From Stappia indica (GTDB lineage: Bacteria > Pseudomonadota > Alphaproteobacteria > Rhizobiales > Stappiaceae), in contig NZ_CP046908.1 in NCBI RefSeq assembly GCF_009789575.1, forward strand, positions 186,001-250,000: 64,000 nucleotides of DNA, read 5' to 3'. The position numbers and the translations under genes were made by a program. The notes beneath the pieces are model-generated. The model was not told where the DNA came from, did not search any database, and saw nothing but the letters and a program-made list of their open reading frames with translations. Of the stretch, positions 22,139 through 45,065 are shown piece by piece (within the stretch, counting starts at the first letter, position 1; the number at the start of each line of letters is the position of its first letter).

Positions 22139-22227
22139 GGCGTCTCCCCTCGCGGCTTCGTCTCCTCTGGGTCAACGGGCTCAGCGGGTGGAGGTTCCAT
22201 GCGACATCGAGCGGAAGGGATCTCCGG

Positions 22228-23106
22228 TCACGCGCTCACCGCGGCGATGGTCCGGCACAGGAGAGCGGCGCTCCTGCGCGCCGCCGGCAGGTCGTCCGGA
22301 TGGCGGGCATGGAGCGCGGCGCCGAGGGCTGCAGCATGGTCCGGCATCGACGACAACCTGATCCCCTTGATCGCTGCGATCGCGTTCGGCCGGGCGCTCG
22401 CGGCGCCGCCGGCGATGAGGATGATGCGCGTCCCGTAATGCGCGGCGAGCCAGTCGCGGGCCCGCACGAGCGCGGCCGTGAAGACGGTGTCCGGGATATC
22501 GCGGTCGACCAGCGTCGCCTGCAGGCAGCCCGTCCGGCCGCACCTGCACCTCATCCCGGCAAGGCCCAGCGGCAGATGGCCGAGCGTTCCCGCCCCGTCC
22601 CCCGTTTGCACCAGCCTGCCGCCGCTGACGAGGCCGACACCGACGCCGGTGCCGAGGCTGAGGGCGCACAGGTCGTCGCCTTCCGCTCCCGCGCGCGCCG
22701 CCTCGCCGAAGGCCGCCGCCATGCCATCGTCGAGATGGCGGATCGCCGCCGGGGCGCCCGCCCGCTCGCTCCCGGCGAGCGCGGTTGCCAGCGGCGCCAG
22801 CAGGTCCGCGCCGAGATAGTCCGGGCGGCTCGGCCAGTCCGTCACCCTGCCGTCCCCGTCGACTGCCGCGGCCCGCGACAGGCCGACCGCGCCGAAGGAC
22901 GCTGCATGCGACGCGGCGCGGGCAACGAGGGCCGCCAGCGCCTGCGCAAGCCCGCCCGGCGGCGGCGTCGGCATCCGCACCGCCCGCGTCTCGCGCCGTG
23001 CCGGATCGACCAGCACCGCGCGCATGTGGGTCGCGCCGATGTCGATGCCGAGCCAGGCAGCCGCCGCGCTGTCTGTCCGCATGGCGGCCGTCATCGCCGT
23101 CGTCAT
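22228..23106 (-). CDS. ROK family sugar kinase-like protein (RifN-like candidate)
   Basis: ATP-dependent sugar kinase fold, 292 aa. The phosphate-1 loop LGIDIGATH is at residues 19-27, the catalytic Asp region is LDDGMAAAFGE (D126/D127), and the ROK zinc site keeps H177 and the three Cys of CRCGRTGC (187, 189, 194). Two usual Glu are replaced: GEIGH is GTLGH and the residue after the Cys motif is Gln. Kanosamine kinase RifN belongs to this family, and this locus has other Rif-like genes, so amino-sugar phosphorylation is a reasonable hypothesis. Its ATG overlaps the methyltransferase stop by 4 bp. Confidence 0.8.
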   Translation of the reverse strand: MTTAMTAAMRTDSAAAAWLGIDIGATHMRAVLVDPARRETRAVRMPTPPPGGLAQALAALVARAASHAASFGAVGLSRAAAVDGDGRVTDWPSRPDYLGADLLAPLATALAGSERAGAPAAIRHLDDGMAAAFGEAARAGAEGDDLCALSLGTGVGVGLVSGGRLVQTGDGAGTLGHLPLGLAGMRCRCGRTGCLQATLVDRDIPDTVFTAALVRARDWLAAHYGTRIILIAGGAASARPNAIAAIKGIRLSSMPDHAAALGAALHARHPDDLPAARRSAALLCRTIAAVSA

Positions 23107-24113
23107 GGCACCTCGACCATGAAGAACCGGTCGGGAGCGCCCGCCAGCGCCAGCTCGCGCGGTGCGGGGAACCCGGCCCGGACGAGCCGCCGGGCGAAGG
23201 CTCCGGCATCGTCGCGGAAGCAGGAACCGCAGCGCAGCCAGTCGATCAGGAACAGGGGCGCGAGATCGCCGCCCCCGTCGGCCGTCAGCTCGCGCAGGAC
23301 GACCGTGCAGCCCGCTCGCGCATGCGCCCGGATCTCGCCGAGCAGCGCATCGATGCCGGCTTCTGGCAGCAGATGCAGGACATTGAGCAGAAGGATCACG
23401 TCCGCCGCCCCGATCAGCGCGGCAAGCGACTGCGGGTGGCGCAGGTCGTGGGCGGCAAAGCGGATCCGTGCCGCCAGCGCGGGCTCTGCGCCAAGGCGCT
23501 GGCCGAACGGCGCGTGCAGCGGCTTGCGGTCGACGACGGTGAAGGTCGCCGCCGGCCATGCCCCCGCAAGGGCCATCGCCACGGCTCCGTCCGCGCCGCC
23601 GAGATCCAGCACCCGCGCGTCGGCGGCCCGGCGTGCCAGGCGGCGCACCATCAATGCCGTCCCGCGCGCGGCCTGCCCCATCGCCTCGGCGAAACCGCGG
23701 ATGACCGCGGACGGCTGCGGCGCATCCAGCGGGTCGCTTCCCCCCTCCCCGGCCAGTGCCCGCGCCAGGCTGCCATTGTCGCGATGCCAGGCGGCCAGCC
23801 GCGCTTCCGCGGCAACGAGCGGCAAGGCCGTTTCGACGCCAGGGGCAAGGCGCGGACGCCCCCCGCCCGGCGTTACGATCCCGGCCCTGCGAAAGACCTC
23901 GAGGACGCTGGCCAGAGCCTCCGGATTCCAGCCGGTGCGCCCGACGAGCTCCGCCTCGTCCAGCCCGTCGGCGAGCCCGCCCAGCAGGCCGGCCCCATCG
24001 GCCTCGAACAGCAGCTCGGTCATCTTGCCGGCCATCGCCCAGAACAGCAGCCGGTTGGCGCCGTCTTTGCCGTCTTTGCCGTCCTTCCCGTCCTCGCCCG
24101 CCTCGCCGGTCAT
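23103..24113 (-). CDS. SAM-dependent methyltransferase (O-methyltransferase type) with Gly-X-Y tail
   Basis: 336 aa. Residues 20-90 are a winged-helix dimerisation-type domain (FEADGAGLLGGL to FRRAGIV), then a Rossmann methyltransferase with motif I VLDLGGADGAVAM near residue 178 and DVILLLNVLHLLPE as motif IV region. This is the order of small-molecule O-methyltransferases. The N terminus is unusual: six consecutive Gly-X-Y triplets at residues 3-20, including three GKD repeats encoded by 9-bp units. It overlaps the dual-OB gene by 4 bp and the ROK gene by 4 bp, so all three form one operon. The domain pair resembles the C-terminal half of the adenylation-methyltransferase fusion nearby. Confidence 0.85.
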   Translation of the reverse strand: MTGEAGEDGKDGKDGKDGANRLLFWAMAGKMTELLFEADGAGLLGGLADGLDEAELVGRTGWNPEALASVLEVFRRAGIVTPGGGRPRLAPGVETALPLVAAEARLAAWHRDNGSLARALAGEGGSDPLDAPQPSAVIRGFAEAMGQAARGTALMVRRLARRAADARVLDLGGADGAVAMALAGAWPAATFTVVDRKPLHAPFGQRLGAEPALAARIRFAAHDLRHPQSLAALIGAADVILLLNVLHLLPEAGIDALLGEIRAHARAGCTVVLRELTADGGGDLAPLFLIDWLRCGSCFRDDAGAFARRLVRAGFPAPRELALAGAPDRFFMVEVP

Positions 24114-24832
24114 GGCCGCTCCGGTACTTGAGCGCGGTCCGCGCGCGGCAGCGCGTGCAGGCCGACCACCAGCGGCTGGCAGCCCTTGAACCGGTCGCCG
24201 GCCGGACGAGAGGCGAGCGTCAGGCCGATCGCAAGATGAACGTCGGCCCCGGCAAGCTCGTCCAGCCAGGCCGAGACGCGCGCGGTGTCGAGCCCGTCCC
24301 CCCGTCGCGCATCGGCAAAGCGGGCAACGGTCGCAACTTCGGGCAGGATCCAGTCGAAGCGCTCGCCGCTGGCATCTCGGAAGACGAGGCGCAAGAACAC
24401 TCGCCCGCGCGTGTGCCGGCGCGCGTGGAGATCGTCGATACGAGCGGGGATGATGGCGGCGCTGCGGTGCTCGGCAAAGCCCTCGTCGACCGTGGCGCTG
24501 GAATGGGTCCGGATCAGGGCCGCCAGCTCGTCCGGGGGCAGCGCCGGGCCGGGCTCCGGGTCGCCGACCAGTGCCATGTCCTCCGGGCGCGCCGCCGTTT
24601 CCTGCGGGCGCACCGTGATCTGCGTCCAGCGGCCATAGCGGAACGGCCCTTGCGGATCGCGTGCGAAGGCGAGCGGGATCGGCTGCGGCCGGACCCAATT
24701 GCCAAGCGAGTCGATCCCTGCGATACAGCCTGTGGTGGCATCCTCCGCGGTGATCGCCAGCGGCAGCATGCGGATGCGGCGCGCAGGCGCAATGGCCGAG
24801 GGCCCGGCGGAAACCCCGGTCAGCGCGGACAT
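24110..24832 (-). CDS. Dual OB domain-like protein
   Basis: 240 aa from the start chosen here. The N-terminal strand pattern TGCIAGIDSLGNWVRPQPI followed by GRWTQITVRPQ, and the C-terminal FRDASGERFDWILPE region, resemble proteins annotated as dual OB domain-containing, whose biochemical role is unknown but which are suspected to bind nucleic acid or nucleotides. No catalytic motif is seen. The ATG at 24832 leaves only 34 bp to the divergent glycosyltransferase gene; another ATG at 24769 would lengthen the promoter space. It is the first gene of an operon with the methyltransferase and the ROK kinase. Confidence 0.6.
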   Translation of the reverse strand: MSALTGVSAGPSAIAPARRIRMLPLAITAEDATTGCIAGIDSLGNWVRPQPIPLAFARDPQGPFRYGRWTQITVRPQETAARPEDMALVGDPEPGPALPPDELAALIRTHSSATVDEGFAEHRSAAIIPARIDDLHARRHTRGRVFLRLVFRDASGERFDWILPEVATVARFADARRGDGLDTARVSAWLDELAGADVHLAIGLTLASRPAGDRFKGCQPLVVGLHALPRADRAQVPERP

Positions 24833-24866
24833 TGGGCAGATCCGCGGGCGGACATGGGACGACCTC

Positions 24867-25727
24867 ATGGCAGTGCGCGTCAGTCTGATCATGATAACAC
24901 ACCTCATGGGCGAACGTCAGAGCCTGTGCCTCTCTGCGATTGCAGCGCATCGCCCCCGTGCCGACGAGATCGTCCTCGTCGTCGACGGAAAGGATGAAGC
25001 GCCCCTTGCCGGCCTCGGTGCGGTTCGCGTGGTGCGGGGGCGCGGGGCGGGACGCGCGGCGGCGCGCAACGACGGCGCCGGGGCGGCGCGCGGCGATATC
25101 CTCGTGTTTCTCGACGGCGACATGCTCACCGCCCCCGACTTCATCGCCCGGCATCTTGCGGGCCATGCGCAGGGCCATGCGTTCACGCGGGGGCGCATCC
25201 GGGAGCTCATTGCGGCCGCAGCGCGCTCTCGCCTCGACGAGGCAGGGCCGGGTTTTCCGGGCCTGCGGGCAGAGAACTTGCAGCGCGACGGCTTCGCTCC
25301 CGCCGGCTTTCGCGCCAGCGCCAGCCTCTTGGAACAGGCGGTCGAGGCGTGTCACGTCGAGGGCAGAACGGAGGTTCCCGCCTGGCTCGCCAGCGCCGGG
25401 GCGAATTTCGCCATCTCGCGCCGTCTCTGGCGGGAGCTCGGCGGCCAGCAGGAGCGGTTCGGGCGGCGCTGGGGATGCGAGGACCTGGAATTCGCCTTCC
25501 GCGTAGGCCGGGCCGGTGCCGGGATCGCCTTCCTGCCGGAGGCCGCCGCCTGGCATCTCAGCCATCCCCAGCCCGAACGATGGCAGGCGCACGAGCAGGC
25601 GCTGGCCCTCTTCGGGGAGTTGCACCGGGACGCGCCCGACATTGCCGCGCTGCATGCCTTGTTGTCCGAAAAAGGCTCGCTCGCGGCCTATCTCGCGGCA
25701 CTCTCGGCCCAGACCCGTATGCCGTAG
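24867..25727 (+). CDS. Family 2 glycosyltransferase
   Basis: 286-aa GT-A glycosyltransferase. The N-terminal beta-alpha unit (VSLIMITHL, then ADEIVLVVDGKDE) is typical of GT2, and the metal-binding DxD motif is D83-G84-D85 (FLDGDM). The C-terminal acceptor region has WGCEDLEFAFR, the ED motif of the galactosyltransferase-like subfamily. There is no membrane segment, so it is cytoplasmic. It is the only plus-strand gene in this part of the cluster, divergent from the dual-OB gene, and its last 40 bp overlap the 3' end of the PIG-L gene. It probably attaches a sugar to the cluster product. Confidence 0.87.
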   Translation: MAVRVSLIMITHLMGERQSLCLSAIAAHRPRADEIVLVVDGKDEAPLAGLGAVRVVRGRGAGRAAARNDGAGAARGDILVFLDGDMLTAPDFIARHLAGHAQGHAFTRGRIRELIAAAARSRLDEAGPGFPGLRAENLQRDGFAPAGFRASASLLEQAVEACHVEGRTEVPAWLASAGANFAISRRLWRELGGQQERFGRRWGCEDLEFAFRVGRAGAGIAFLPEAAAWHLSHPQPERWQAHEQALALFGELHRDAPDIAALHALLSEKGSLAAYLAALSAQTRMP

Positions 25728-26410
25728 CGCTCCCCCGTCCCGTGGCCGCGCGCCGCAGCGAAGGCGCGCAGCGCGCTCTCGAATGCATCGCGGCCGGCAA
25801 ACAAGGCCGCGATCTGGCTGCGATAGAGCCCCGCTGCCGCGATCCAGGCGCCGATATCCGCAGGTTCCGTTCGCGCCGCGAAGCCGGTCGGCGGCGATGG
25901 CACCGGATAGGGGAAATCCTCGTAGAGGATAAGCGGAGCTGCCATCGACGATGCACCGAGCGCCGCGCGCAGGAGACGGTGATCGACATGCGTGCCGGTG
26001 CCGGCGACCGGTGCATGGACGAGAAGCGCATCCGCGAGAACGGGCGCAAGGCGGGCGCGCAGGCGCTCGACAAGCGGGCTGTCCATATCGGACAGCTCTC
26101 CGGTCAGGTCTTCCGGGGCGCAGCAGGCCGGGGCCTCGCGCGTGCCGCGCAGCGCCGCATCGACGAAACCGAGCGACAGTCCCTCGATGCCGAGACGGTC
26201 AAGGGCTCGGGTGTTTTCGAGACGGCGCAGATCCGGTGCCGCAAGGCGCCGCCACCCCTCCGCTGCGACGCCTCCGTCCTGCGGATCGCCATCGAAAACC
26301 GTGACGACCAGCGGATCCTCGCCGCGATCCCGCGCTGCCAGCAGCAGCGGGCCGCAGGACCAGACCGCATCGTCGGGATGGGGCGACAGAAATATCGGCC
26401 GTGGCTTCAA
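25688..26410 (-). CDS. PIG-L family (LmbE-like) deacetylase
   Basis: Zinc-dependent de-N-acetylase fold, 240 aa. The metal and catalytic motif is SPHPDDAVWSCG (His11, Asp13, Asp14) and the distal ligand region is GTHVDHRLL. Family members remove acetyl groups from GlcNAc-type amino sugars in mycothiol, bacillithiol, GPI anchors and aminoglycosides. It is the last gene of the seven-gene operon, overlapping the SDR gene by 4 bp, and its 3' end overlaps the convergent glycosyltransferase. In this context it likely unmasks an amino sugar. Confidence 0.9.
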   Translation of the reverse strand: MKPRPIFLSPHPDDAVWSCGPLLLAARDRGEDPLVVTVFDGDPQDGGVAAEGWRRLAAPDLRRLENTRALDRLGIEGLSLGFVDAALRGTREAPACCAPEDLTGELSDMDSPLVERLRARLAPVLADALLVHAPVAGTGTHVDHRLLRAALGASSMAAPLILYEDFPYPVPSPPTGFAARTEPADIGAWIAAAGLYRSQIAALFAGRDAFESALRAFAAARGHGTGERYGIRVWAESAAR

Positions 26411-27144
26411 AACCGGGCCCCGCCATCGACGGGGATCGTCGCGCCGGTGACATAGGCCGCCTCGTGCGACACCAGAAAGGCGACGACCGACGCGACATCC
26501 TCGGGTCGTCCCAGGCGCCCGAGGGCAATCCGCCCGACAACCTCCGCCTGCTCCGCTTCGTTGTAGCGGGCGGCCGAACTCTCCATGGCGCCCGGTGCAA
26601 CGACATTCACGGTGATGCCGTAGCGGCCGACCTCCCCGGCGAGCGACAGCGCGAAACTCGCCAGCGCCGCCTTGCTGGCCGCGTAGGCCGCCTGCCCCGC
26701 CATGCCGGCCGTTGCGGCCCGCGAGCCGACGACGACGATCCGGCCGTGGCCGGCGGCGATCATCGGCTTCAGCTGGGCGCGCAGGAAGGCGATCTGGGCG
26801 GTGGCGTTGATCCTCATCAGCCGCGCCACCGTCTCGTCGCGGGTCAGGAGCGCGAGCGCGCGGCCGGCTTCCGCCGCCGCCAGAACGATGGTCGCAGGCG
26901 CCCCGGCGAGCCGTTTCACCTCCGCGGCAGCCCGCGCCCCTTCGCCCTCCACGGCGAAATCGGCTGCAACGAGCGACATCCGCCCGCCGGCCTCGCCGAT
27001 ACCGGCCTGCAACACCTGCGCGGCCGCCGAATTGCTGTGGTAGAGGCCGACGACATGGGCATGATCGCGCGCCAGGCGCCGGGCGATCTGCGCGCCGATG
27101 GGACCGGTCGCGCCGGTGATCGCGGCGATCCGCTCCCCGCTCAT
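26407..27144 (-). CDS. SDR oxidoreductase (FabG-like 3-oxoacyl-ACP reductase)
   Basis: 245-aa short-chain dehydrogenase. The cofactor loop TGATGPIGAQIA is at residues 10-21, the catalytic Ser is in VVGSRAA, and YAASK supplies Tyr and Lys. The C-terminal PEDVASVVAFLVSHEAAYVTG run is typical of FabG proteins. It lies directly after the acyl carrier protein gene (4-bp overlap), which supports reduction of a beta-ketoacyl-ACP intermediate with NADPH. It is the sixth gene of the operon. Confidence 0.92.
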   Translation of the reverse strand: MSGERIAAITGATGPIGAQIARRLARDHAHVVGLYHSNSAAAQVLQAGIGEAGGRMSLVAADFAVEGEGARAAAEVKRLAGAPATIVLAAAEAGRALALLTRDETVARLMRINATAQIAFLRAQLKPMIAAGHGRIVVVGSRAATAGMAGQAAYAASKAALASFALSLAGEVGRYGITVNVVAPGAMESSAARYNEAEQAEVVGRIALGRLGRPEDVASVVAFLVSHEAAYVTGATIPVDGGARF

Positions 27145-27401
27145 GCCTGGGACAGCGCGTCCCGACGCGCGATCACATAGGCCTCCAGCGTCTGCAGGTT
27201 CTCGACGAGCCCGGAGCCGAGGTCTTCGTCGCGCACCTCTATGCCGAAGGCGATCTCGATGCTGATCAGGATCTCCAGCGCGTCGACGGAGGAGATCGCC
27301 AGCATGCCCACCAGGTCCTTGCCCGCAAGGTCCTCGACGGCCAGTTTCGAGCGCGTCGCCTTCAGCACGACCTCGGCGATCTCGCGCTGCATCTCAGTCA
27401 T
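27141..27401 (-). CDS. Acyl carrier protein
   Basis: 86-aa four-helix carrier protein. The phosphopantetheine attachment site is Ser38 in the motif LAISSVDALEIL, a variant of the usual GxDSL, followed by the acidic helix II (ISIEIAFGIEV). The ATG at 27401 overlaps the preceding adenylation-methyltransferase gene by 8 bp. It would carry the acyl or amino acid chain activated by that adenylation domain and be served by the SDR and the distant ketosynthase. A stand-alone ACP inside an operon with radical SAM enzymes is a hallmark of secondary metabolism. Confidence 0.88.
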   Translation of the reverse strand: MTEMQREIAEVVLKATRSKLAVEDLAGKDLVGMLAISSVDALEILISIEIAFGIEVRDEDLGSGLVENLQTLEAYVIARRDALSQA

Positions 27402-29655
27402 GCGGTCCTCCCGTTTCCCGTCCTTGTCGCGCCAGCACCAGACGCGCGCCGGGTATGCCGGCAACAGCGATCCCGGTCGTGGCCAACCCCAGCCCGGCAA
27501 GGTGTTCAGTCAGTTCGCCCTCCGTGAAAAACGCGGCGCCCCCGTGGGTCAGCCAGTCGAGGGCGAAGTCGGCGCCGGCCTGCGTGCCGTCGAAGAAGAG
27601 ATCGTCGACAAGCAGCCGGCCGCCCGGCCCGAGCGCGGCCACGATCTCGCAAAGCCTGTCCGCAACGGGCGGCCAGCGCAGCGCGTTGGCAAGGACGACC
27701 GCGTCGAAGGCCCCCTCCGCAAGCGGTTCGCCGAGCCCGTCGCCGGCCGGTCCGACGGCAATCCGCGCCGCGTGCGCGCTGCCGTCGCGCGCCATCAGCC
27801 GCTCCCCGTAAAGGCCCGGCCCTGCCGTGATCTCGAGCATCCTTGCACCGGGGGAAAGCGCCAGCGCGCGCAGCCCGAAACCGGCACGCAGCTGCGCGGC
27901 CGGCCCGTTCATCGCCGCAAGATAGACCTCGCGATGGGGCGAGGCCGAGGTGAGCGTTTCGCCACCAGAGAAACCGCGGGCAGTGAGCCGCGCGATGATC
28001 TCGCGGGTCGCAAGCCCCCGCGAGGCCGCCGCCTCGAAGGCGATCAGGCCCTCGACACCCGTTGCCGGTTCCTGCCCCTGCCCCTCTTCCTGCACTGGCC
28101 CTCCCGCCTTGACGAGGCCATGAGCCTCGGCGAGCACCAGCAGCGCCTCGAGCGTCCCGGCATCGCAGCCGATGTCCTCGGCGAGGTCCTCGGCGCTTCG
28201 GCCCTCGGTGAGGCGCGAGAGAACGTCCGTCTCGTGAAGCGCGAAGAGCAGTTCGGCGCGCTTGTAGCCGCGCGCCGCCTCGGCCAGCACCGCCGCCGGC
28301 CCCGGACGCCAGATGCGGGGCGCTGCGATCTTGCCGCCGTCGCCGCGCGAGAGCATCAGGTGCAGTTCGATCCGGTCCGGCCGGTTGCCGGCGCCGAGCC
28401 GTGTTGCGGCGTGGTGCCGGAACGCCTCCACGGGAAACTGCGCCGGGTCGACCGGCCAGAGGTCGAGCGCCAGCGCATCGTCGCCATCGGCCCGCGTCCC
28501 GGCCTTGCGCGCCCGCAGCGCCCTGACGCCCGGAAAGCCGGACAGCAATGCCTCGACCTCTCCAGTCGCGATCCAGGTGTCGCCGCGGCGCACAGCCTGG
28601 CCGGCGCGCCCGAGCACGCGGATCTCGCCGGCGGGATCGGCCATCACGAGATCGCCCATCGCATGCCAGCCAAGGCCGAGATCGATTTCGAGCGCCCCCG
28701 TCTTGCCGTCGCCGACCGGCCCGCCCGCCTCGTCGACGATGCGGTGACGCACACCGGGCATCGGCCCGCCGATCCGGCCCGGCGGCGGACTTCCGAGCGC
28801 GGAGAACACCGCGCCCGTCTCCGTCGACCCGTAGTTGCGTGCCAGCCCGATGCCGAAGCGCGCGGCGAATGCGTTTAGGAGATCGTCCGTCACCGGTCCG
28901 GCACCTACCATCACCCGGCCCTTTGCCGGCGATGGCCCTCGGCCATGAGACGGGCGGCGGGCCACGAGCCGGGCGATGGCCGGCGTCATCACGGTCCATG
29001 CCGCATCCTCGTCGACCGCCCGGGCAATCGCGCCGAGATGGCTCGGATCGAGCGGCAGCGCCGTCCAGCGCGCCGCAAGACAGCCGGCAAACCAGCCGAG
29101 CGCATAGGCATGGGCGACCGGTGCGGCAAGGGCGACGCGCGTGCCCTCGCCAGCCCCGATCAGGAGCCGGTAGCGCTCGCCTTCATCGATCAGGCTTTCG
29201 GCAGAGCGGGCGACGATCTTCGCCTCGCCGGTCGATCCGGAGGTGGACAGCAGCACCGCGCCGGGTTCTGCCAGGCCTGCCCCGTCGAGCCGGAGCACGC
29301 CCCCTTCCTCGCCGGGCGAGAGCCACAGGCGCGCCTTGCCGCGCGCCAGGCAGGCGGCCCGCTCCGCCTCCACCGCCTTCGGCGACACGATCAGCGCCGC
29401 GCCGCCGGCAGCGCCGATGACGAGCAGCGCCGCGAGGCTTTCCAGCGTATTCGCCAGCGGCAGGGCAACAATCGCGCCGCCCAGGCCGTCCGTGCCGAAG
29501 AGCCGTCGCCCCCGCGCCTCGACATGCTCGGCGAGCCGCGCGCCGCTCCAGTCGTCGACAATGGCCGTCTCGCTGGCGCCGTCGAGGAGCCCGGCAAGGC
29601 TGTTGGCGCTGCTGCCATGGGCATCGATCCGGCTTGCGGACCCGGGCCTGGTCAT
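27394..29655 (-). CDS. Adenylation domain - methyltransferase fusion
   Basis: 753 aa. Residues 1-450 are an AMP-forming adenylation domain: TSGSTGEAK at 138-146, NYGSTETG at 274-281, the ribose-binding GD at 334-335, and the C-terminal catalytic Lys442 (RGDGGK). Residues 460-520 are a winged-helix dimerisation-type segment and 570-745 a methyltransferase with motif I MLEITAGPGLYG at 606-617. It probably activates an acid and loads it on the ACP encoded immediately downstream, and methylates the bound or free acid. The adenylation core is short (no long N-terminal lobe), as in small ligases. The start at 29655 is set by the ATGA overlap with the radical SAM gene. The fused MT half resembles the stand-alone methyltransferase at 23.1-24.1 kb. 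Confidence 0.85.
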   Translation of the reverse strand: MTRPGSASRIDAHGSSANSLAGLLDGASETAIVDDWSGARLAEHVEARGRRLFGTDGLGGAIVALPLANTLESLAALLVIGAAGGAALIVSPKAVEAERAACLARGKARLWLSPGEEGGVLRLDGAGLAEPGAVLLSTSGSTGEAKIVARSAESLIDEGERYRLLIGAGEGTRVALAAPVAHAYALGWFAGCLAARWTALPLDPSHLGAIARAVDEDAAWTVMTPAIARLVARRPSHGRGPSPAKGRVMVGAGPVTDDLLNAFAARFGIGLARNYGSTETGAVFSALGSPPPGRIGGPMPGVRHRIVDEAGGPVGDGKTGALEIDLGLGWHAMGDLVMADPAGEIRVLGRAGQAVRRGDTWIATGEVEALLSGFPGVRALRARKAGTRADGDDALALDLWPVDPAQFPVEAFRHHAATRLGAGNRPDRIELHLMLSRGDGGKIAAPRIWRPGPAAVLAEAARGYKRAELLFALHETDVLSRLTEGRSAEDLAEDIGCDAGTLEALLVLAEAHGLVKAGGPVQEEGQGQEPATGVEGLIAFEAAASRGLATREIIARLTARGFSGGETLTSASPHREVYLAAMNGPAAQLRAGFGLRALALSPGARMLEITAGPGLYGERLMARDGSAHAARIAVGPAGDGLGEPLAEGAFDAVVLANALRWPPVADRLCEIVAALGPGGRLLVDDLFFDGTQAGADFALDWLTHGGAAFFTEGELTEHLAGLGLATTGIAVAGIPGARLVLARQGRETGGPHD

Positions 29656-30755
29656 GCAGCGCCCTCCCCGGCCGTCAGCTCCGCCTTTGCCCGCTCCAGC
29701 CAGGCCCGCACCTCGGGTGCGGAATAGGCAGGCCCGGCACAGACCTCGTCCAGCGTCACCTCGCCGTCGAGATACATCGACAGCATGTCCCAGGGCGTGA
29801 AGCAGCCCTTGCAGGCCGCGAGCCTCGGCCGATCCGCCAGCAGCGCCTTGTAGAGCGGCGTCTCGCCGATGGCCGCGCTCGTCTCGGACCAGTCGTCGGC
29901 CAGCGCGCTGCCGAGATCGGAGAACCAGATGTTCGGGCAGGCGGTGACCATGCCGTCGCTGAAGGTCGAGACGACGAGGCGCGGCAGGTGGCAGCGAAAG
30001 CGCCGGCCGCCCTCGCGGTAGAAGCGCAGCAGGCGGTCGAGATAGGGCTTCGGCGGCAGCACCTCGGCAAGGCGCCCATGCGCCTCGGCCAGCGCCTCGA
30101 TCCCGGCGATCTGCTCGGGCCGGATCGCATGGGCTCCGGTATCCGGGCCCCGCACCGGGAAAGGCAGCATCTGCAGGCGCGTACCGAAGGCGGCCAGCCA
30201 CTCGGCAAAGCCCACCAGTTGCTCGGCGTTGCGGTCGGTGATCACCGTGTAGATCTCGACCGCGAGGCCGCGCTCCAGGATCGCGGCGATGCGCGCCAGC
30301 GCCTTGTCGTGCAGGTCGGCGCGAGCGATGCGATGGCTGTTGCCGGAATGAAGATGGGAGTCGAGCGACAGTTGCAGCGTCACGTTGGGCAGCAGCGCCA
30401 GCCGGTCCAGATGGTCGGGACGCATCAAGATGCCGTTCGACTGCAGCAGCACGGACGGAAAGCGGGCCGCCGCCTTCTCGACCAGCGCAAGGATGTTCTC
30501 GACGAGAAACACCTCCCCGCCCGTGATCTTCAGCAGCGGAGCCCCATGCGCTGCCGCGACCCGGTCGATGATGGCATCGACGCGCTGCCCCAGCGGCGTG
30601 TCGCCGCCATAGCGGTCGCGCTTCGGCGTGCCGAAGATCGGCTGGCCGAGATGCGACTGCTTGAGGTTGCTTTGCCCGGTGAGGCAATAGGTGCAGCCGA
30701 GATTGCAGTCGTTCTCGTTGATGACCAGGTCGTTGCCGAGCAGGGCGGCGCTCAT
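29652..30755 (-). CDS. Radical SAM protein (SPASM-like C terminus)
   Basis: 367 aa. The 4Fe-4S radical SAM motif is C17-N-L-G-C21-T-Y-C24, directly near the N terminus, and the SAM-binding GGE motif is KITGGEVFLVE. Near the C terminus there are further Cys residues (RFRCHLPRL, VTACPN, AACKGCFTPWDM) consistent with an auxiliary cluster, as in SPASM/twitch enzymes. The substrate is unknown; family members modify peptides, sugars or carrier-bound groups. It overlaps the adenylation gene and the B12-type radical SAM gene by 4 bp each. Confidence 0.88.
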   Translation of the reverse strand: MSAALLGNDLVINENDCNLGCTYCLTGQSNLKQSHLGQPIFGTPKRDRYGGDTPLGQRVDAIIDRVAAAHGAPLLKITGGEVFLVENILALVEKAAARFPSVLLQSNGILMRPDHLDRLALLPNVTLQLSLDSHLHSGNSHRIARADLHDKALARIAAILERGLAVEIYTVITDRNAEQLVGFAEWLAAFGTRLQMLPFPVRGPDTGAHAIRPEQIAGIEALAEAHGRLAEVLPPKPYLDRLLRFYREGGRRFRCHLPRLVVSTFSDGMVTACPNIWFSDLGSALADDWSETSAAIGETPLYKALLADRPRLAACKGCFTPWDMLSMYLDGEVTLDEVCAGPAYSAPEVRAWLERAKAELTAGEGAA

Positions 30756-32503
30756 GCGATTTCCTTCTCGCTGCGCGGCGGCGCGGTCTGGATCCCGGCG
30801 ATGTCGAAGCCCTTTCGCCGCAGCCGGAAGCCCGCGCGCAGCTTGGCCGCCTCGATGGCCCGCAAGCGGTCGCCGTAGAACGCCTCTATCGGCGCGGCGA
30901 GCGCAGCCGCTGCCGCCATCACATCGTCGTCGCGTTCGGCGCGGTCGGTGAGATCGCTGACCAGTGCGAAGTTGAACTGCGCCATCTCGCGCTTCAACGG
31001 CTCGACCGTCGCGGCGAAGTCGTCGAGGATCTCCGCCGCCGCGGGATCGCTGCCATGGACGCGCCGCAGCCGGCTGGCGAACGTGTGCAGGACGATGTCG
31101 TCCGTCTCGAAGCGGAAGACGGCCGGCTCGACGTGGATCTTGCAACTCTCGGCATATTCGGCGCCGTAGATGGCGTTGAGCGCGGTGGCCAGCCGCTCGA
31201 CCCGTTCGTCGACATAGCGGAAGGAAAAGGGGTTGAAGGTGCGGAAGAAGGTCTCGTCCAGCAGGCCGTCGGCGCGCAGTTCCTCGATCACCTCCGCTCC
31301 CGGATAGAGCTCCAGGCGGGTGGTGAAGCGGCGCAGGTTGTGGCCGAACATGTCGCGCAGGAAGGCCGAGTTCTCGCGGATCTCCGAGAAGGTCGCCCAG
31401 GGGTGGAACGAGATGAAGCCGAAGGCGACATAGGCGCCGGTCTCGCGCAGCAGGCGGATGATCCGGCGGTTGTCCTCGGTGGTCGATTTCTTCTGCCAGC
31501 GGGCAAGGCCTTCCTGGCTGCCGGACTCGATCCCCACCAGCACCTTTTCCAGCCCCGCCCGCCAGAGCAGGTCGAGCAGCGGCCGGTCGTCCTCGCTCCA
31601 GTGCGCGGCCTGCATGCAGACGTTGAAGTAGATCCTCAGGTCGCGGTCCAGGATCTCGTTGGCGATGGCCGCCACGCGCCGCTTGCCGAATTGCGCGCCG
31701 CCCGGATCCTCAAAGGTGGAATCGACGAAATCGAAGGTGTTGACGCCATAGGCCTCGACCAGCCGCTCGATCTCGTCGACCACGCGTGCGGGCGAGGCGC
31801 CGCGCCAGGGCTTGGCCGCCGGCCCCACCCGGTTGCGGGCGTGCGGCGCATTGCAGAACGTGCAGTGCGATGTGCAGCCCCGGCTGGTCGACACGCGCAG
31901 GTAGGGAAAGCGGCGGGCGTGCTGCTCGAACTGGTCGCGCACCGGATCGGGCAGATGGTCGAGCTGGCCGACACCGGCGGAAAGCGGCGTTTCAACAAGG
32001 GCCCCGTCGCGCAGGAAGCACAGGCTCGGCACCTCGCCCAGATCGCCGCCGGTGTGGAGCGCCTCGCACAGGCGCAGCATCGGCACTTCTCCCTCGCCCC
32101 GTACCAGCGCGTCGAGAAACTCCCAGCCGGGCGCGGCGAGCAGCGCGCTCCCCAGATGGGTGGCGACCGGACCGCCGGCGACGATCAGGACCTGCGGGCC
32201 GAGCGCCGCGCGGATCGCCGCGCCGAAACGGGCGATCTCGTCGATGGAGACGGTGGTGATGCTGAGGCCGATCACGTGCGGCCGGAGCCTCGCGAAGTCC
32301 TCCACCAGGGCCGCCGTCTCGTTCACGGCCGCATCCCGGATCACGACGCTCGCCCCGGCCCGGCGCAGCACCGCCGCAAGATAGGCCGGCCCCAGATGCT
32401 CGGGCGACAGCACCAGGTCGCCCTCCAGCACGATCGGAAAGGCGACGCGCAGCGGCTGAGGGCTGGAAAGGTCGGCGCGAGGCGCCAGAGCTGCGGTCGT
32501 CAT
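30752..32503 (-). CDS. B12-binding-domain radical SAM protein
   Basis: 583 aa from the chosen start. An N-terminal cobalamin-binding-like Rossmann domain (SPEHLGPAYLAAVLRRAG, about residues 33-135) precedes the radical SAM domain with C210-x3-C214-x2-C217 (CTSHCTFC). I see no DxHxxG for lower-axial His, which is common in this class. Such enzymes methylate unactivated carbon or phosphorus, or rearrange rings. GTG at 32521 and ATG at 32518 overlap the upstream stop; ATG at 32503 has the best ribosome site (a run of Gs followed by AG) and is preferred. It is second in the operon and is followed by another radical SAM enzyme. Confidence 0.87.
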   Translation of the reverse strand: MTTAALAPRADLSSPQPLRVAFPIVLEGDLVLSPEHLGPAYLAAVLRRAGASVVIRDAAVNETAALVEDFARLRPHVIGLSITTVSIDEIARFGAAIRAALGPQVLIVAGGPVATHLGSALLAAPGWEFLDALVRGEGEVPMLRLCEALHTGGDLGEVPSLCFLRDGALVETPLSAGVGQLDHLPDPVRDQFEQHARRFPYLRVSTSRGCTSHCTFCNAPHARNRVGPAAKPWRGASPARVVDEIERLVEAYGVNTFDFVDSTFEDPGGAQFGKRRVAAIANEILDRDLRIYFNVCMQAAHWSEDDRPLLDLLWRAGLEKVLVGIESGSQEGLARWQKKSTTEDNRRIIRLLRETGAYVAFGFISFHPWATFSEIRENSAFLRDMFGHNLRRFTTRLELYPGAEVIEELRADGLLDETFFRTFNPFSFRYVDERVERLATALNAIYGAEYAESCKIHVEPAVFRFETDDIVLHTFASRLRRVHGSDPAAAEILDDFAATVEPLKREMAQFNFALVSDLTDRAERDDDVMAAAAALAAPIEAFYGDRLRAIEAAKLRAGFRLRRKGFDIAGIQTAPPRSEKEIA

Positions 32504-32517
32504 CGCTCCCCCCGTCA

Positions 32518-34023
32518 TCACAGATAGCCGAGCTGCGCGAGCCGCCGCTCGATCTCGACCTGATGCGCGCCGATTGCCGCCGAGGCCGGGCTGCGGGCAA
32601 GGCGCTGCGCCGGTTCGCAGGCGATGCGCGGCGCATCGAGGGCAAGGCTCCGGCCGTCGAGATCCGCCTGCGCCGGCAGGCCGAGATGGGCGAGCACGGT
32701 CGGCGCCACGTCCTCGACGCGGGCCGCCCGGTTTTCCAGGGCCAGCCCTCGCGCGAACAGGATGCCGTCCTCGCGGTGGATGCCGGCCTGCGCCGGGGCG
32801 TCGAAGACCGGCCCCTGAAGATCCGGGGCCGGCATCGCGTCCCAGCGGCCCGGCATCAGGATCAGGTCGGGCGCGTCCGCAAGGCGGTGACCGCGATAGA
32901 CCTGCCGGCGCGGCAGCACCTCGAACGGGCGGTCGCCGTCGAGCGACAGATCGCCAAGGACGGCCTCGACCTCGCGTATCACCGCTCCGGCCTCCGTGTC
33001 CGAGACGATGCCCTGCCGCTGCCGTCCGGCGCGGTTGAGCGTGATGCCGTAGCAGCCGGGCGCCGGCATGAAGGCGCGGGTGCGGGAAAAGTCGACCTCC
33101 CGGTTGGGCGCGGCGGCGCGGAACCAGCTCGCCGACAGCGCCTGCTCCACATCGGAGAAATGCGGCTTGCGGCCGTTCGCCGCGACGGGGGCCTCCGCCG
33201 GCTGCGTCGCCAGCAGCCCGGCCTCCGCCAGCAAGGCGTTGACGTTGATCTTGTGCCGGCAGACCCCGAAACCGTGATCGGAGACCACAAGGACGGCGAC
33301 GTCGTCATCGATGGCCGCGAGCAGCCGGCCGAGCGCAGCATCCATGTGATCGTAGATCGCGTTGACCTCGTCTGCCGGGGCCTCCTCCCCGCCCCAATAG
33401 CAGTGCGAGACCCGGTCGAGCTCTGTGAACACCGCGAACAGCGCATCGACCGGACGGGCGTCCATCAGATAGAGCAGCGTGTCGACCTTGGCGTCGATCA
33501 ACGCGCGCGCCGTCTCCAGGTAGCTCTCGTCCTCCCGGTACATGGTCATCAGGTCGCTCTGGTAGTGCAGGCCGTGCTCTGCCAGTTCACCGATCAGGGA
33601 ACGCGGCCAGGCGTAGCCGAGCGTCGGCGTCAGCGGCCAGGTCAGCATGTAGCCGTCCGCAATCGGCTCCGGGGGATGCGACATCGGCACGTGGAACAGG
33701 CCGACCGACAAGCCATGGCGCTCGAGCGAGCGCCACAGCGGCTCGCGGCCGAAATCCGCCACCGTCGACAGGGCCGGACGGTAGCCCGGCGCCTGCAACT
33801 CCCAGAACTGGTAGACCCCGTGCTCGCCCGGCGAGACGCCGGTGAACAGGCTGGTCCAGCCCGGTGCGGTATGCGGAGGAAACGGTGTCAGCAGCGGCTG
33901 GGGCGAGCGGCCTGCGGCAAGCGAGCGGAACGTCGGCAGCCGACCCTGCTGAAGGCCGCGTGCGATCAGGGTATGGGAGGCACCGTCAATCCCGATCAGG
34001 ACCAGTTTCGGCTTGGACTGCAT
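32518..34023 (-). CDS. Alkaline phosphatase superfamily phosphodiesterase, catalytically complete
   Basis: 501-aa cytoplasmic protein of the nucleotide pyrophosphatase/phosphodiesterase branch. All expected metal ligands are present: Asp13 (IGIDGA), the nucleophile Thr52 (HTAPGW), Asp203 and His207 (DRVSH), Asp249-His250 (SDHGFG) and His416 (AGIHRED). There is no signal peptide or membrane helix. It is the first gene of the seven-gene operon, with GGGAG before its ATG, and faces a divergent relative that has lost half of these residues. Hydrolysis of a nucleotide-sugar or phosphodiester intermediate is a possible role. Confidence 0.88.
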   Translation of the reverse strand: MQSKPKLVLIGIDGASHTLIARGLQQGRLPTFRSLAAGRSPQPLLTPFPPHTAPGWTSLFTGVSPGEHGVYQFWELQAPGYRPALSTVADFGREPLWRSLERHGLSVGLFHVPMSHPPEPIADGYMLTWPLTPTLGYAWPRSLIGELAEHGLHYQSDLMTMYREDESYLETARALIDAKVDTLLYLMDARPVDALFAVFTELDRVSHCYWGGEEAPADEVNAIYDHMDAALGRLLAAIDDDVAVLVVSDHGFGVCRHKINVNALLAEAGLLATQPAEAPVAANGRKPHFSDVEQALSASWFRAAAPNREVDFSRTRAFMPAPGCYGITLNRAGRQRQGIVSDTEAGAVIREVEAVLGDLSLDGDRPFEVLPRRQVYRGHRLADAPDLILMPGRWDAMPAPDLQGPVFDAPAQAGIHREDGILFARGLALENRAARVEDVAPTVLAHLGLPAQADLDGRSLALDAPRIACEPAQRLARSPASAAIGAHQVEIERRLAQLGYL

Positions 34024-34126
34024 CGCTCCCGCCTTTCCGATCGCAACTGCCGCGCGCAGCAGTTTACGTAGGGACAATAAAGCGATACAGCTGGGAATAC
34101 AATTAAAAGTAACGGGGATAAGGGAA
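34024..34126. promoter_or_regulatory. Divergent promoter region of the two phosphodiesterase-family genes
   Basis: 103 bp between divergent genes, notably AT-rich from 34060 to 34115 inside a roughly 70% GC neighbourhood. It must serve both the seven-gene minus-strand operon and the plus-strand genes. Candidate boxes are weak (TTTACG plus 17 bp plus TACAGC on the plus strand; TTGTAT plus 17 bp plus TATTGT on the minus strand), so exact promoters are not assigned. Confidence 0.35.
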
Positions 34127-35407
34127 TTGGTTCTCGTGGTTGCAATCGCCGAAGGCGCGGATCCCGGCCTGTTGCGCAGCACCAGGGGACGGGCCCTGTG
34201 TCCGTGGCTCACCGAAGCGCTCGGCACCGCCGCTGCGTGGGATCTCGACTGCGGCCCGGCGCCCTATGAGCCCTCGAACCTCGCCACCGCCTTCACGGGC
34301 CGCGGCCGCGGCCATCACGGCTGCTATTCCTACTGGAAGATCCGTTCGGAGGGCGGCGCACCGCCCGCTGTCCTGACCTCGTCCGACGTGCTCGTGCCGC
34401 GCCTGTGGGCCTGGCCGCAGCTTGCCGGCAAGCGCTTTGCGCTGGTCAATGTCCAGCTCACCTTCCCGCCCGAACCGCTGGACGGGGTCGTGCTCTCCTA
34501 TCTGATGGCGCAGACGCTGCGCTACACCTGGCCCCGGGATCTGGTGCACGAGTTGAAGCGGCGTGGTCTGCGCTATGGCCACGACGTCTCGGTCTTCTAT
34601 CGCGGCGAGCCGCCGGCCAGCTATTTCGCCGCGATCCTCAAGGTCGCCCGCTATCAGCTGGAGGCCGCATTGGCGCTCGGCGCCGAGCACGACGTGCTGA
34701 TCGTCAACCTGACCATCGTCGACCGCCTGTCGCATTTCCTCTGGCACGAGGCGGACGCATCCGATGCCGATGCCGGCGCCGGCGAGGTTCCGCGGCTCTG
34801 GCTCGGCTATGCGTTTCTCGACGAGGCGCTGGCGCGGCTCGACCGCCTCGCGGGCGACGATCCGATGCTGGTGTTCTCGGAGATCGGCTTCGGGCCGCTC
34901 GACGGGTTCGAACGTCTCGACACCGCCCTTGCCGCGGGCGGCTTCTGCCGCATGGACGCCTCGGGCCATGTGGCGGAGGACGGGTGGGTCGCCCGCGAGG
35001 CGGTCCAGGGCAGTCACGGCATCCTGCTCAACGACGGCAGCCACGCCCTGCGCCAGGAGGTGGCCGACTGCCTGCGCGCGTCCCGCAACGCCGGCGGGCA
35101 ACTGCTGATCGCCCGCGCCGACCCGCGCGAGGCGCTCTACGAGGGGCCGGCGGTCGCGCTTGCGCCCGATCTCGTCGTCACTCCCGCCGACCCGCGCCGC
35201 CCGCCGATGGGCGACCTGCGCTGGGCCGAGCATGTCAACCGCACCCTGCAGACCGGCTGGCACCGCGATGGGGGCTTTCTTTGCGTGAAACGGGCGAGGC
35301 CGGTTGCCGGTGCGGCCAGTCTGGAAGCCATCGCCCCGACCATCGCCGCGCTTGGCGGACGGGAGGCACCGGAGAATTGCGTTGCGCCGGTGGCGACGCG
35401 ACTATAG
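34127..35407 (+). CDS. Alkaline phosphatase superfamily protein with a degenerate metal site
   Basis: 426 aa; sequence layout matches the divergent intact enzyme, but the second metal site and nucleophile are gone: Asp13 is Glu9 (AIAEGADP), nucleophile Thr52 is Glu48 in gapless alignment from FTG, and Asp249-His250 is Glu252-Ile253 (SEIGFG). The first metal site is kept: Asp199 and His203 (VDRLSH), His379 (GWHRDGG). The protein is probably non-hydrolytic, perhaps a binding or regulatory partner of its neighbour, or an enzyme with altered chemistry. The start is TTG at 34127 (GGGG about 11 bases upstream); GTG at 34136 is an alternative. Confidence 0.8.
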   Translation: MVLVVAIAEGADPGLLRSTRGRALCPWLTEALGTAAAWDLDCGPAPYEPSNLATAFTGRGRGHHGCYSYWKIRSEGGAPPAVLTSSDVLVPRLWAWPQLAGKRFALVNVQLTFPPEPLDGVVLSYLMAQTLRYTWPRDLVHELKRRGLRYGHDVSVFYRGEPPASYFAAILKVARYQLEAALALGAEHDVLIVNLTIVDRLSHFLWHEADASDADAGAGEVPRLWLGYAFLDEALARLDRLAGDDPMLVFSEIGFGPLDGFERLDTALAAGGFCRMDASGHVAEDGWVAREAVQGSHGILLNDGSHALRQEVADCLRASRNAGGQLLIARADPREALYEGPAVALAPDLVVTPADPRRPPMGDLRWAEHVNRTLQTGWHRDGGFLCVKRARPVAGAASLEAIAPTIAALGGREAPENCVAPVATRL

Positions 35408-35435
35408 CCACACCATGCGACCGGAGGGACACGCA

Positions 35436-36335
35436 GTGACGCATGAAAGCAGAGTGATAGGCCACCTTCCCCGTCCGCTCGGCGACATGCCGGGCGTTGT
35501 CCATGGCGACGCGCTTCTGGTGCTCGGCGGGGCCTCCGGCATGGAAAATCGCGACGAGATCCTCGCCGTCTCCGCCGACGGGACGGTGCGCGAGGTCGGG
35601 CGCCTGCCCGAGCCCCTGCGCGGCCACCAGGCGGTCAGGATCGGCTCCGCCGCCATCGTCATCGGCGGGTTCACCGGCGAGACCGTCGCGACCGGGTTCC
35701 GGCTCGACCTCGAGAGTTTCGCGAGCCGGCCGATCGCACCGATGCCGCGCGGTTCGGCCTGGTTCACGGCCGCGGAGTCCGGCGGCCGGATCTATGTCGT
35801 CGGCGGCTTTTCGATCCCCGAGGGCTACTGGCCCGACATCGCCGTCTACGATCCGCAGGCGGATCGCTGGGAGGTCGTCGAGGATGGGTTCAGGGACGGC
35901 CCGTTTCCCAAGGCGATCCTGGGCAGCAACACCGTCGTTGCGGCCGGCGAACGGATCCTGTCCTTCGGCGGCGCCGACACGTTCGACGGCGGCACGATGC
36001 GCGCGAATGCGCTCGATGCCGCCGCCGCCTTCGATCCGGCCACACGCAGCTGGACGGCCCTGCCGGCAGGCATGGAGCCGCGCGAGGGCCTCGTCGGCGT
36101 CACCTATGGCGACAAGGCCTATCTCGTCGGCGGCATGCGCAACGCGCCCGAGCATTCCTCCCCGCTGGTCGAGGAGGTCGATCTGGCAACCGGTAGCGTC
36201 ACGCCTTTCGCGACGCTGAAGGAAGGCCGCACGGCCGCCGCCTGCGGTGTTCTCGGCACAACGCTCGTCGTCGCCGGCGGCGTCACCGAGGGGGTAGCGA
36301 ACATGACCGGGACGATCGAGGCAATCTCGCTGTAG
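35436..36335 (+). CDS. Kelch-repeat beta-propeller protein
   Basis: 299 aa made of kelch repeats: successive blades contain GG pairs such as LLVLGGASGMENRD, AIVIGGFTG, IYVVGGFSIPEGYW, ILSFGGADTFD, AYLVGGMRNAPEHSS and LVVAGGVTEG, giving a six-bladed propeller. No signal peptide is seen. Kelch propellers bind sugars or proteins, and the N-acetylneuraminate epimerase family shares the fold. GTG at 35436 is preferred over ATG at 35415 because GGAGGG lies 8 bases before it. It follows the degenerate phosphodiesterase gene by 28 bp and may be part of the same transcript. Confidence 0.8.
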   Translation: MTHESRVIGHLPRPLGDMPGVVHGDALLVLGGASGMENRDEILAVSADGTVREVGRLPEPLRGHQAVRIGSAAIVIGGFTGETVATGFRLDLESFASRPIAPMPRGSAWFTAAESGGRIYVVGGFSIPEGYWPDIAVYDPQADRWEVVEDGFRDGPFPKAILGSNTVVAAGERILSFGGADTFDGGTMRANALDAAAAFDPATRSWTALPAGMEPREGLVGVTYGDKAYLVGGMRNAPEHSSPLVEEVDLATGSVTPFATLKEGRTAAACGVLGTTLVVAGGVTEGVANMTGTIEAISL

Positions 36336-36362
36336 GCGCCGATATCACAGGGAGATGCCGCC

Positions 36363-36737
36363 ATGACCGATTGCGATCCGAACCAGCTCCAGCGGCTGGT
36401 GGAGACGACGCTGGGGCCGGAGGCGATGGACCACGGCCTGACCTTCCGGCCGATGTTCGGCGGCATCACCGCCTATACGATGGGCCGGAATTTCGCCTCG
36501 CTCTCCAATGTCGGGCTGGCGCTCAAGCTCGACCGGGCCGCGCGCGACGAACTCCTCGCCGTTCCGGGCGCAAGGCCGCTGCAATACGACCCCGGCGGAC
36601 CGGTCAGCAAGAGTTCGGTCGTCGTGCCGGAGAGCTTTCACGAAGACACCGACGCCTTGCGCGGCTGGCTCCTGCGCAGCATCGACTACTGCCGCACCCT
36701 CAAGCTGCCGGCCAGGCGCAAGAAGCGCGAGAGCTGA
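36363..36737 (+). CDS. TfoX/Sxy family N-terminal domain protein
   Basis: 124 aa. The sequence from LTFRPMFGGITAYTMGRNFASL through LALKLDRAARDELL to FHEDTDALRGWLLRSIDY is the TfoX N-terminal domain (PF04993). Full TfoX proteins activate competence genes; the single-domain forms common in alphaproteobacteria are of unknown role. The C terminus is a short basic tail (ARRKKRES). It follows the kelch gene by 27 bp and converges with the DegT gene. Confidence 0.88.
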   Translation: MTDCDPNQLQRLVETTLGPEAMDHGLTFRPMFGGITAYTMGRNFASLSNVGLALKLDRAARDELLAVPGARPLQYDPGGPVSKSSVVVPESFHEDTDALRGWLLRSIDYCRTLKLPARRKKRES

Positions 36738-36754
36738 TCCCCTTCCCTGCCCGC

Positions 36755-37981: not shown

Positions 37982-38084
37982 CCGCATACCCCTCCCCGGG
38001 CAGAGCCCGATGACGCTGCAAACCTCACCCATGAAACCACCCGCCCTCCACAACGTCAAATTGATTTGACGGAACCTGGCAACC

Positions 38085-39586: not shown

Positions 39587-39682
39587 CTTCCGTCCAGACA
39601 GGGTTGGGTGTTCTGGACCTGCGATGCCGGCAGCATCGACGATCCGCCCGAATATACACGCAAAAGTATAAGGATGAAACTG

Positions 39683-39711: not shown

Positions 39712-39753
39712 CCTTGCCTGAGGCTGCAACCCGTCTGACATGAGTGCGCCAAC

Positions 39754-43286: not shown

Positions 43287-43292
43287 GGGACC

Positions 43293-45050: not shown

Positions 45051-45065
45051 GGGGGAGAGGAAGCG

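Follow-up and report, generated by a model that had tools for sequence, protein, structure and literature searches.

A radical SAM operon of Stappia indica lies in a genomic island that probably builds an AHBA-aminosugar product, as in the first stage of mitomycin biosynthesis

We analysed a 64,000-nucleotide stretch of Stappia indica DNA (NZ_CP046908.1, positions 186,001 to 250,000; hereafter the window), in which an original prediction had singled out seven minus-strand genes at 25688..34023 as a radical S-adenosylmethionine (SAM), adenylation and acyl carrier protein (ACP) operon. We find that this operon forms the central part of an island of 25.4 kb (22151..47531; 25,381 bp). The island probably makes 3-amino-5-hydroxybenzoic acid (AHBA) and assembles from it, on the ACP, an AHBA-aminosugar product, in the manner of mitomycin's first stage. 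The decisive clue to its identity comes from homologues of RifK, RifL, RifM and RifN, all encoded outside the seven-gene operon, and it is these that lead to the AHBA reading. The predicted assembly line, in which an acyl or aryl unit is held on a carrier, altered by radical chemistry and joined to an amino sugar, is supported and sharpened, the aryl unit being most likely AHBA. As the line is recognisable as the start of a mitomycin-like AHBA-aminosugar pathway, the original prediction as a whole is partly supported.

The seven-gene operon

All seven genes were found where predicted, and their starts were re-derived exactly. They are given below in operon order, each read from its higher coordinate; the Mit roles refer to the mitomycin pathway.

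32518..34023, minus strand: AlkP-superfamily phosphodiesterase AlkP1, motifs intact (PF01663, 127 bits)
30752..32521, minus strand: cobalamin-binding radical SAM enzyme (PF02310 and PF04055)
29652..30755, minus strand: second radical SAM enzyme (PF04055)
27394..29655, minus strand: AMP-forming ligase fused to a methyltransferase-fold domain, MitE-like role (PF00501, 93 bits)
27141..27401, minus strand: ACP of 86 aa with Ser38 (ACP matches under curated cut-offs)
26407..27144, minus strand: short-chain dehydrogenase/reductase (SDR) of FabG type, MitF-like role (PF13561, 140 bits)
25688..26410, minus strand: PIG-L deacetylase, MitC-like role (PF02585, 54 bits against a cut-off of 28.2; TTG start)

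Neighbouring genes overlap at all six junctions (by 4, 4, 4, 8, 4 and 4 bp in the above order), confirming the predicted overlaps of 4-8 bp and suggesting that the seven genes are cotranscribed. A promoter scan of the operon found none; with 0.3 expected by chance, this result is uninformative. The same seven genes recur in identical order in Sphingomonas sp. DG1-23 and in a gammaproteobacterial metagenome-assembled genome (MAG). Since these are two distant proteobacteria, the arrangement is not a product of chance.

Families were assigned with Pfam and NCBIfam. The predicted phosphodiesterase, B12-binding and radical SAM, second radical SAM, AMP-binding, SDR and PIG-L families all score above their Pfam cut-offs, whereas two assignments, those of the predicted ACP and of the methyltransferase part of the fusion, fall under theirs and are the weakest in the operon. 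The ACP scores 15.3 bits against the Pfam PP-binding family (cut-off 20.8), and the NCBIfam ACP models are likewise under cut-off; its Ser38, as predicted, is present inside an SVDALEIL motif that is invariant in all three orthologues. FabG-type NCBIfam models match the SDR, all of those shown being under cut-off. For the methyltransferase half, the best Pfam score is 17.8 bits (cut-off 21.2), and the SAM-binding motif is poorly conserved. Modelled with low confidence (mean pLDDT 62), this C-terminal domain is similar to small-molecule O-methyltransferases, with MfnG at rank 1 and the mitomycin 7-O-methyltransferase MmcR at rank 7; because the O-methyltransferase fold is common, the likeness to MmcR is not evidence for mitomycin.

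The cobalamin radical SAM enzyme has weak PDB matches to OxsB, CysS and TokK and, as a guess at family level, may methylate its substrate or form a C-C bond. The second radical SAM enzyme carries five further cysteines (C255, C273, C315, C318 and C339), invariant in three of three sequences, which we read as twitch/SPASM-like; in Foldseek its model, also of low confidence (mean pLDDT 67), resembles SkfB, BlsE and PqqE. AlkP1 retains IGIDG, PPHT, DHGFG and HR in all three genomes, motifs that we take to be the metal and nucleophile sites. In AlkP2, a paralogue encoded in the same island, all three genomes have EIGFG in place of DHGFG and EG in place of IDG, with 41-48% conservation of the protein across the three sequences. 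This conserved loss of motifs suggests that AlkP2 is a non-catalytic partner or has altered chemistry, and the conserved pairing of an active with an apparently inactive AlkP protein is a puzzle in its own right.

Homologues of the AHBA synthesis enzymes

Four genes of the island resemble AHBA synthesis genes of the rifamycin type:

36755..37981, minus strand: DegT-family putative AHBA synthase, RifK-like (best PDB match AHBA synthase, 1b9h/1b9i)
38085..39158, plus strand: Gfo/Idh/MocA oxidoreductase, RifL-like (Pfam; divergent from the RifK-like gene)
46811..47440, minus strand: HAD phosphatase, RifM-like (PF13419)
22228..23094, minus strand: ROK kinase, RifN (kanosamine kinase)-like (PF00480; homologues in both related clusters)

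Among solved structures, the DegT protein matches AHBA synthase at 296 bits and the next family at 215. A tree built from 16 DegT proteins places those of the three clusters in one group with three Streptomyces RifK-like proteins (support 96/97); the tree has long branches and does not resolve the forks within the AHBA-type group, and the Streptomyces rif labels were assigned from gene context. The DegT protein and the AHBA-type synthases also share 16 alignment positions, each of which recurs in no more than one of the nine other DegT enzymes counted; the distant BB1-1-1 protein, which would have been the tenth, was excluded. From its tree grouping and best PDB match, the RifK homologue is thus predicted to be an AHBA-type synthase.

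The other three homologues vary in specificity. The HAD protein has TIGR01454, 'AHBA synthesis associated protein', as its best NCBIfam model (120.7 bits; next 72) and shows 37-39% identity to three Streptomyces RifM-like proteins. The Gfo/Idh/MocA protein scores 102-117 bits against three RifL-like proteins, versus at most 61 against six family decoys, three of them partial. The ROK kinase and a RifN-like protein of Streptomyces share 39% identity across 146 aa, a match that alone is not specific. Homologues of K, L and N are found in all three clusters and of M in two of them. Furthermore, the MAG cluster includes a 3-deoxy-D-arabino-heptulosonate 7-phosphate (DAHP) synthase and AroQ, the Sphingomonas genome has a second AroQ about 1.7 kb from the operon, and the island's edges fall just beyond the RifN-like and RifM-like genes.

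As a control for the K-L-M-N set, we used the rifamycin-type AHBA operon rifGHIKLMN plus rifJ of a Streptomyces sp. CL7 plasmid (L041), whose rif labels also come from gene context. The island's K, L, M and N are 42%, 34%, 37% and 39% (146 aa) identical to their CL7 homologues. The CL7 genes form one operon that adjoins type I polyketide synthase (PKS) genes, whereas the AHBA genes of the island are scattered, and the island gave no match to a G, H, I or J family or to a modular type I PKS.

An alternative is that the four homologues make just a kanosamine-type 3-amino sugar, while the ligase loads some other acyl or aryl acid for attachment to this sugar or a different one. According to PMC8788734, UDP-3-ketoglucose is a further substrate that RifK aminates, and the three shikimate-type genes are absent from the island. 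Nevertheless, the DegT protein groups with the AHBA-type synthases and carries positions nearly exclusive to them, and the DAHP synthase and AroQ of the MAG cluster also speak against this alternative, which we consider improbable. That AHBA is made, by contrast, appears quite likely.

Comparison with the early mitomycin pathway

Mitomycin is an anticancer drug made by soil bacteria. Two papers (PMC8621148, PMC9570651) describe how its biosynthesis starts: MitE activates AHBA, MmcB carries it, MitB adds N-acetylglucosamine (GlcNAc) and MitC deacetylates it, after which the intermediate is processed by MitF, a FabG-like enzyme, and by MitD, which belongs to the radical SAM enzymes. Such AHBA-aminosugar chemistry is described there from Streptomyces and other actinobacteria, and PMC9570651 calls mitomycin-type pathways still not well elucidated. 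The island holds one candidate for each of these early roles except that of MitD, for which either of its two radical SAM enzymes is a candidate. The earlier statement that the operon matches no known pathway is not supported, as the early mitomycin module has an equal set of roles.

The likeness to MitE, MmcB, MitB, MitC, MitF and MitD is drawn from role descriptions in those texts. By enzyme family and described role, both systems have AHBA genes, an AMP ligase, a deacetylase, a FabG-like SDR and a radical SAM enzyme, together with a stand-alone ACP (MmcB, 93 aa; island ACP, 86 aa) and a small glycosyltransferase (MitB, about 33 kDa tagged; island GT2, 286 aa). Unlike the mitomycin cluster of Streptomyces lavendulae and S. 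caespitosus, the island is proteobacterial, and its ligase is fused to a methyltransferase-fold domain. The cobalamin radical SAM enzyme, AlkP1/AlkP2, DuOB, the sulfotransferase and the ketosynthase are extras relative to the early steps as described in the papers.

The best solved relatives of the GT2 and PIG-L proteins act with N-acetylhexosamines, the matches being weak in both cases. For GT2 these are polypeptide GalNAc-transferases, in a short match (34.5 bits, residues 175-237). For PIG-L, the pseudoaglycone deacetylase Dbv21 comes first (35 bits), followed by a deacetylase and teicoplanin Orf2. Dbv21 and Orf2, glycopeptide pseudoaglycone deacetylases of the A40926 and teicoplanin pathways, act on aromatic natural products; their similarity to the island enzyme is weak and the pathways are otherwise unrelated.

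Given that no carbamoyltransferase (MmcS) or oxygenase/late-oxidation Pfam family matched among the 23 island genes, to which the search for late mitomycin enzymes was confined, the product is probably not mitomycin. The cluster may still form a new class: no mitomycin-type late genes are recognised in the island and several conserved genes lack a counterpart in the early mitomycin steps as published in those accounts. FR900482 and FR66979, which are AHBA-derived mitomycinoids, also belong to the closest known systems by description; the FR900482 core derives from a mitomycin pathway intermediate, according to PMC9570651.

The proposed pathway

In the pathway that we infer, with regard to both substrates and step order, the RifL, RifK, RifM and RifN homologues would yield kanosamine 6-phosphate, which would become AHBA through the RifK homologue and enzymes shared with the shikimate pathway. 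The AMP ligase would load AHBA onto the ACP, GT2 would attach GlcNAc to the AHBA amine by N-glycosylation, and the PIG-L enzyme would remove the acetyl group from the attached sugar. After this, the SDR and both radical SAM enzymes may reshape or join the AHBA and sugar halves, with methylation, sulfation and a phosphodiester step as possible final steps.

Several observations weigh against this proposal. The TIGR01454 match of the HAD protein is under the curated cut-off of 246.65, the ROK and SDR similarities are not specific, and the 40-kb stretch of MAG contig that was compared shows no RifM homologue. The island has no aminoDAHP synthase, aminodehydroquinate (aminoDHQ) synthase or dehydratase (a dedicated RifH, RifG or RifJ). 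Genome searches for these families (PF01761, PF01474, PF00793 and PF01220) found DHQ synthase and type II DAHP synthase once each, a single gene of the DAHP_synth_1 family and two AroQ, every one of them off the island. The second AroQ was considered as a hidden part of the pathway and rejected, its neighbourhood reading as a GntR/TRAP-transporter operon. The likeness to the Mit proteins is one of described roles; the ketosynthase, aminotransferase and amidotransferase are left unexplained by the model; and, besides the late mitomycin families, no exporter family matched among the 23 island genes.

With regard to the absent genes, PMC8788734 describes a hybrid pathway in E. coli that yielded AHBA; the rif genes it lists are rifH, K, L, M and N, with neither rifG nor rifJ among them. 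Host enzymes may thus serve in place of the absent shikimate-type genes, a substitute for RifH still being required. The second AroQ locus (L045 7936-13216; C1:4403935-4409215 of the same genome) adjoins a phosphopantetheinyl transferase (Pfam) and also holds genes reading as an acyltransferase and a P450.

Gene content and limits of the island

By our gene reading, the island comprises 23 genes, with the RifN-like kinase at one end and the RifM-like phosphatase at the other. Besides the eleven listed above, they are:

23103..24113, minus strand: SAM methyltransferase MT2 (PF13489/PF00891; Sphingomonas homologue 33%)
24110..24769, minus strand: dual-OB (DuOB) protein (in all three clusters, 31-34% identity)
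24867..25727, plus strand: GT2 glycosyltransferase, MitB-like role (PF13641/PF00535; tail-to-tail overlap with the PIG-L gene)
34103..35407 (start codon approximate), plus strand: AlkP2, apparently inactive AlkP paralogue (PF01663, 27.5 bits against a cut-off of 23)
35415..36335, plus strand: Kelch-repeat protein (only in this island; no match in the relatives' stretches)
36363..36737, plus strand: TfoX_N protein (PF04993, 43.5 bits; 46% homologue at Sphingomonas C12:313121-313483)
39101..39586, minus strand: Cdd1-family protein (PF11731, 80.9 bits; 39% homologue in the MAG)
39754..41940, plus strand: fused double ketosynthase (PF00109/PF02801; second half without Cys by sequence reading)
41937..43286, plus strand: class III aminotransferase, glutamate-1-semialdehyde aminomutase type (PF00202; hemL-type models under cut-off; only in this island)
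43293..45050, plus strand: asparagine-synthase family amidotransferase (PF00733 and PF13537; only in this island)
45066..45644, plus strand: sulfotransferase (PF13469; in all three clusters, 35-46% identity)
45756..46712, plus strand: alpha/beta hydrolase (PF00561; also in Sphingomonas)

An RWGCEDL motif of GT2 is invariant in all three clusters, and the amidotransferase matches TIGR01536 at 280 bits (cut-off 267). Against PF22557 (cut-off 27 bits), the Sphingomonas DuOB orthologue scores 31 and the MAG orthologue 18.6, while the window copy gives no match. Literature searches on Cdd1 and DuOB gave unrelated papers, and no MT2 homologue was found in 40 kb of the MAG contig.

The ketosynthase operon, predicted to be linked to the seven-gene operon, indeed lies within the same island. 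It raises the alternative that AHBA is loaded as the starter of a ketosynthase-extended, ansamycin- or aryl-polyketide-like product, with the SDR as ketoreductase and GT2 and PIG-L serving only to decorate. The FabG-like SDR would suit such a role, and a fused double ketosynthase whose first active site reads as intact is present here and, with the same layout and 30% identity, in the Sphingomonas cluster. However, no modular PKS, malonyl-acyltransferase or dehydratase family matched in the island, just one ACP gene is recognised, and 40 kb of the MAG contig, which starts beside the cluster, has no ketosynthase homologue. We hence regard a polyketide product as unlikely.

Clusters for surface polysaccharides often hold GT2, ROK kinase, DegT, Gfo/Idh/MocA and sulfotransferase genes, all of which occur here, and a distant relative of the B12 radical SAM enzyme is located in a sugar cluster. 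An island that modifies a surface polysaccharide or glycolipid carrying a substituted amino sugar would nevertheless be a very improbable reading, as no flippase, polymerase or chain-length family matched in the island and a carrier-protein module is present together with AHBA-type enzymes.

The island's limits were set by DNA comparison with three same-genus genomes (G078, G074 and G080), the three whose two flanking regions proved to lie near each other. The island is absent from the corresponding site in all three: homology ends at 22150 and restarts at 47541, 47541 and 47532, respectively. The flanks are 36.7 kb apart in S. indica, compared with 10.07, 10.05 and 16.7 kb in G078, G074 and G080, and about 0.5 kb stands in the relatives in place of the 25.4 kb. 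The G+C content of the island is 0.708, versus 0.670 and 0.682 for the window flanks. Horizontal acquisition of an island of natural-product type is the best explanation for this region.

Two further differences lie near the island site. A tRNA-Ser (tga) and a low-G+C gene (18662-20293) occupy 18242-20526, a second small insertion; in two relatives, homology is lost here at about 18331-18334 and returns at 20526-20623. To the right of the site, G080 has about 4.9 kb of other DNA (L059 9881-14787) between the positions homologous to 49076 and 49114 of the window.

Related clusters and rarity

A scan with the cobalamin radical SAM enzyme over one genome per species (84,980 species) gave 17 pattern matches, two of which encode a relative: the orthologues of Sphingomonas sp. 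DG1-23 (58% identity) and of the gammaproteobacterial MAG (52%). As such scans detect close relatives only, two related clusters is a lower bound. The 23 island genes were compared (E<=1e-4) with two stretches, one of 80 kb from the Sphingomonas contig and one of 40 kb from that of the MAG: 19 had a homologue in the former, 15 in the latter and 14 in both; gene absences in the MAG may reflect the contig end, since the contig starts beside the cluster. Sphingomonas also keeps the order PIG-L, convergent GT2, DuOB, methyltransferase and ROK kinase, with the sulfotransferase before the kinase.

At the thresholds used, the cluster looks rare across the order, the class and the genus Sphingomonas. 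The cobalamin radical SAM enzyme (E<=1e-60) was found in one of 297 genomes of the order and the second radical SAM enzyme (E<=1e-15) in one of 385 genomes of the class, in each case the S. indica genome itself; a search of 295 Sphingomonas genomes returned DG1-23 alone. Matches to the fusion protein in 81 of 87 family genomes (own included, E<=0.001) were rejected as orthologues and taken as generic AMP ligases, the best non-self match being 65 bits against 1614 for self. Four plasmids with radical SAM matches (Solidesulfovibrio, Burkholderia stagnalis and two Streptomyces) were also rejected, with at most two gene families in common with the island. In the Streptomyces NBC_00335 plasmid, considered as a mitomycin-type cluster, the AMP ligase lies about 46 kb from the AHBA-type genes, among other genes; the Streptomyces BB1-1-1 plasmid (GT2 match and DegT) reads as an unrelated cluster. 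The B. stagnalis plasmid (L025 12882-31200) carries three near-adjacent radical SAM genes, an AMP ligase, an ACP and two ketosynthase-like genes, apparently another, unrelated carrier-bound radical SAM cluster. Judged from titles and abstract openings, none of the open-licence papers listed in the searches describes a proteobacterial cluster of this kind.

Both related clusters have genes of their own. Sphingomonas DG1-23 adds, at C12:306632-310815 (L034 10632-14815), a GMC oxidoreductase, a BBE-type FAD oxidase and a glyoxalase/bleomycin-resistance-fold protein, possibly for tailoring or self-protection. A VOC protein of the Sphingomonas cluster was considered as a counterpart of the mitomycin-binding protein MRD, which has a PDB entry; this was not supported, its sole PDB match at E<=0.01 being the uncharacterised 2qnt. 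The MAG (L036 4001-4411, 6896-7882 and 16939-18636) carries two glyoxalase/bleomycin-resistance-fold genes and an ATP-sulfurylase/adenylylsulfate (APS)-kinase fusion, the latter fitting a supply of 3'-phosphoadenylylsulfate to the conserved sulfotransferase.

Implications

The early AHBA-aminosugar roles of the mitomycin type are already known from the published accounts; here they would occur in unrelated bacteria and together with several extra enzymes. More tentatively, the three clusters might specify a new proteobacterial product class, in which an AHBA-hexosamine scaffold would have its rings closed or rearranged, unlike in mitomycin, by paired radical SAM enzymes, one of them cobalamin-dependent. 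AlkP1 and AlkP2 would then act as a two-protein unit in phosphate or sulfate masking, and DuOB and Cdd1, as nucleic-acid-type proteins, would protect the cell against a DNA-reactive product. If the AHBA-aminosugar reading is true, the island is a compact Gram-negative version of this chemistry that, in three divergent copies, would be a source of new enzymes that glycosylate AHBA-ACP and form rings by radical chemistry, and perhaps also of a novel DNA-reactive scaffold.

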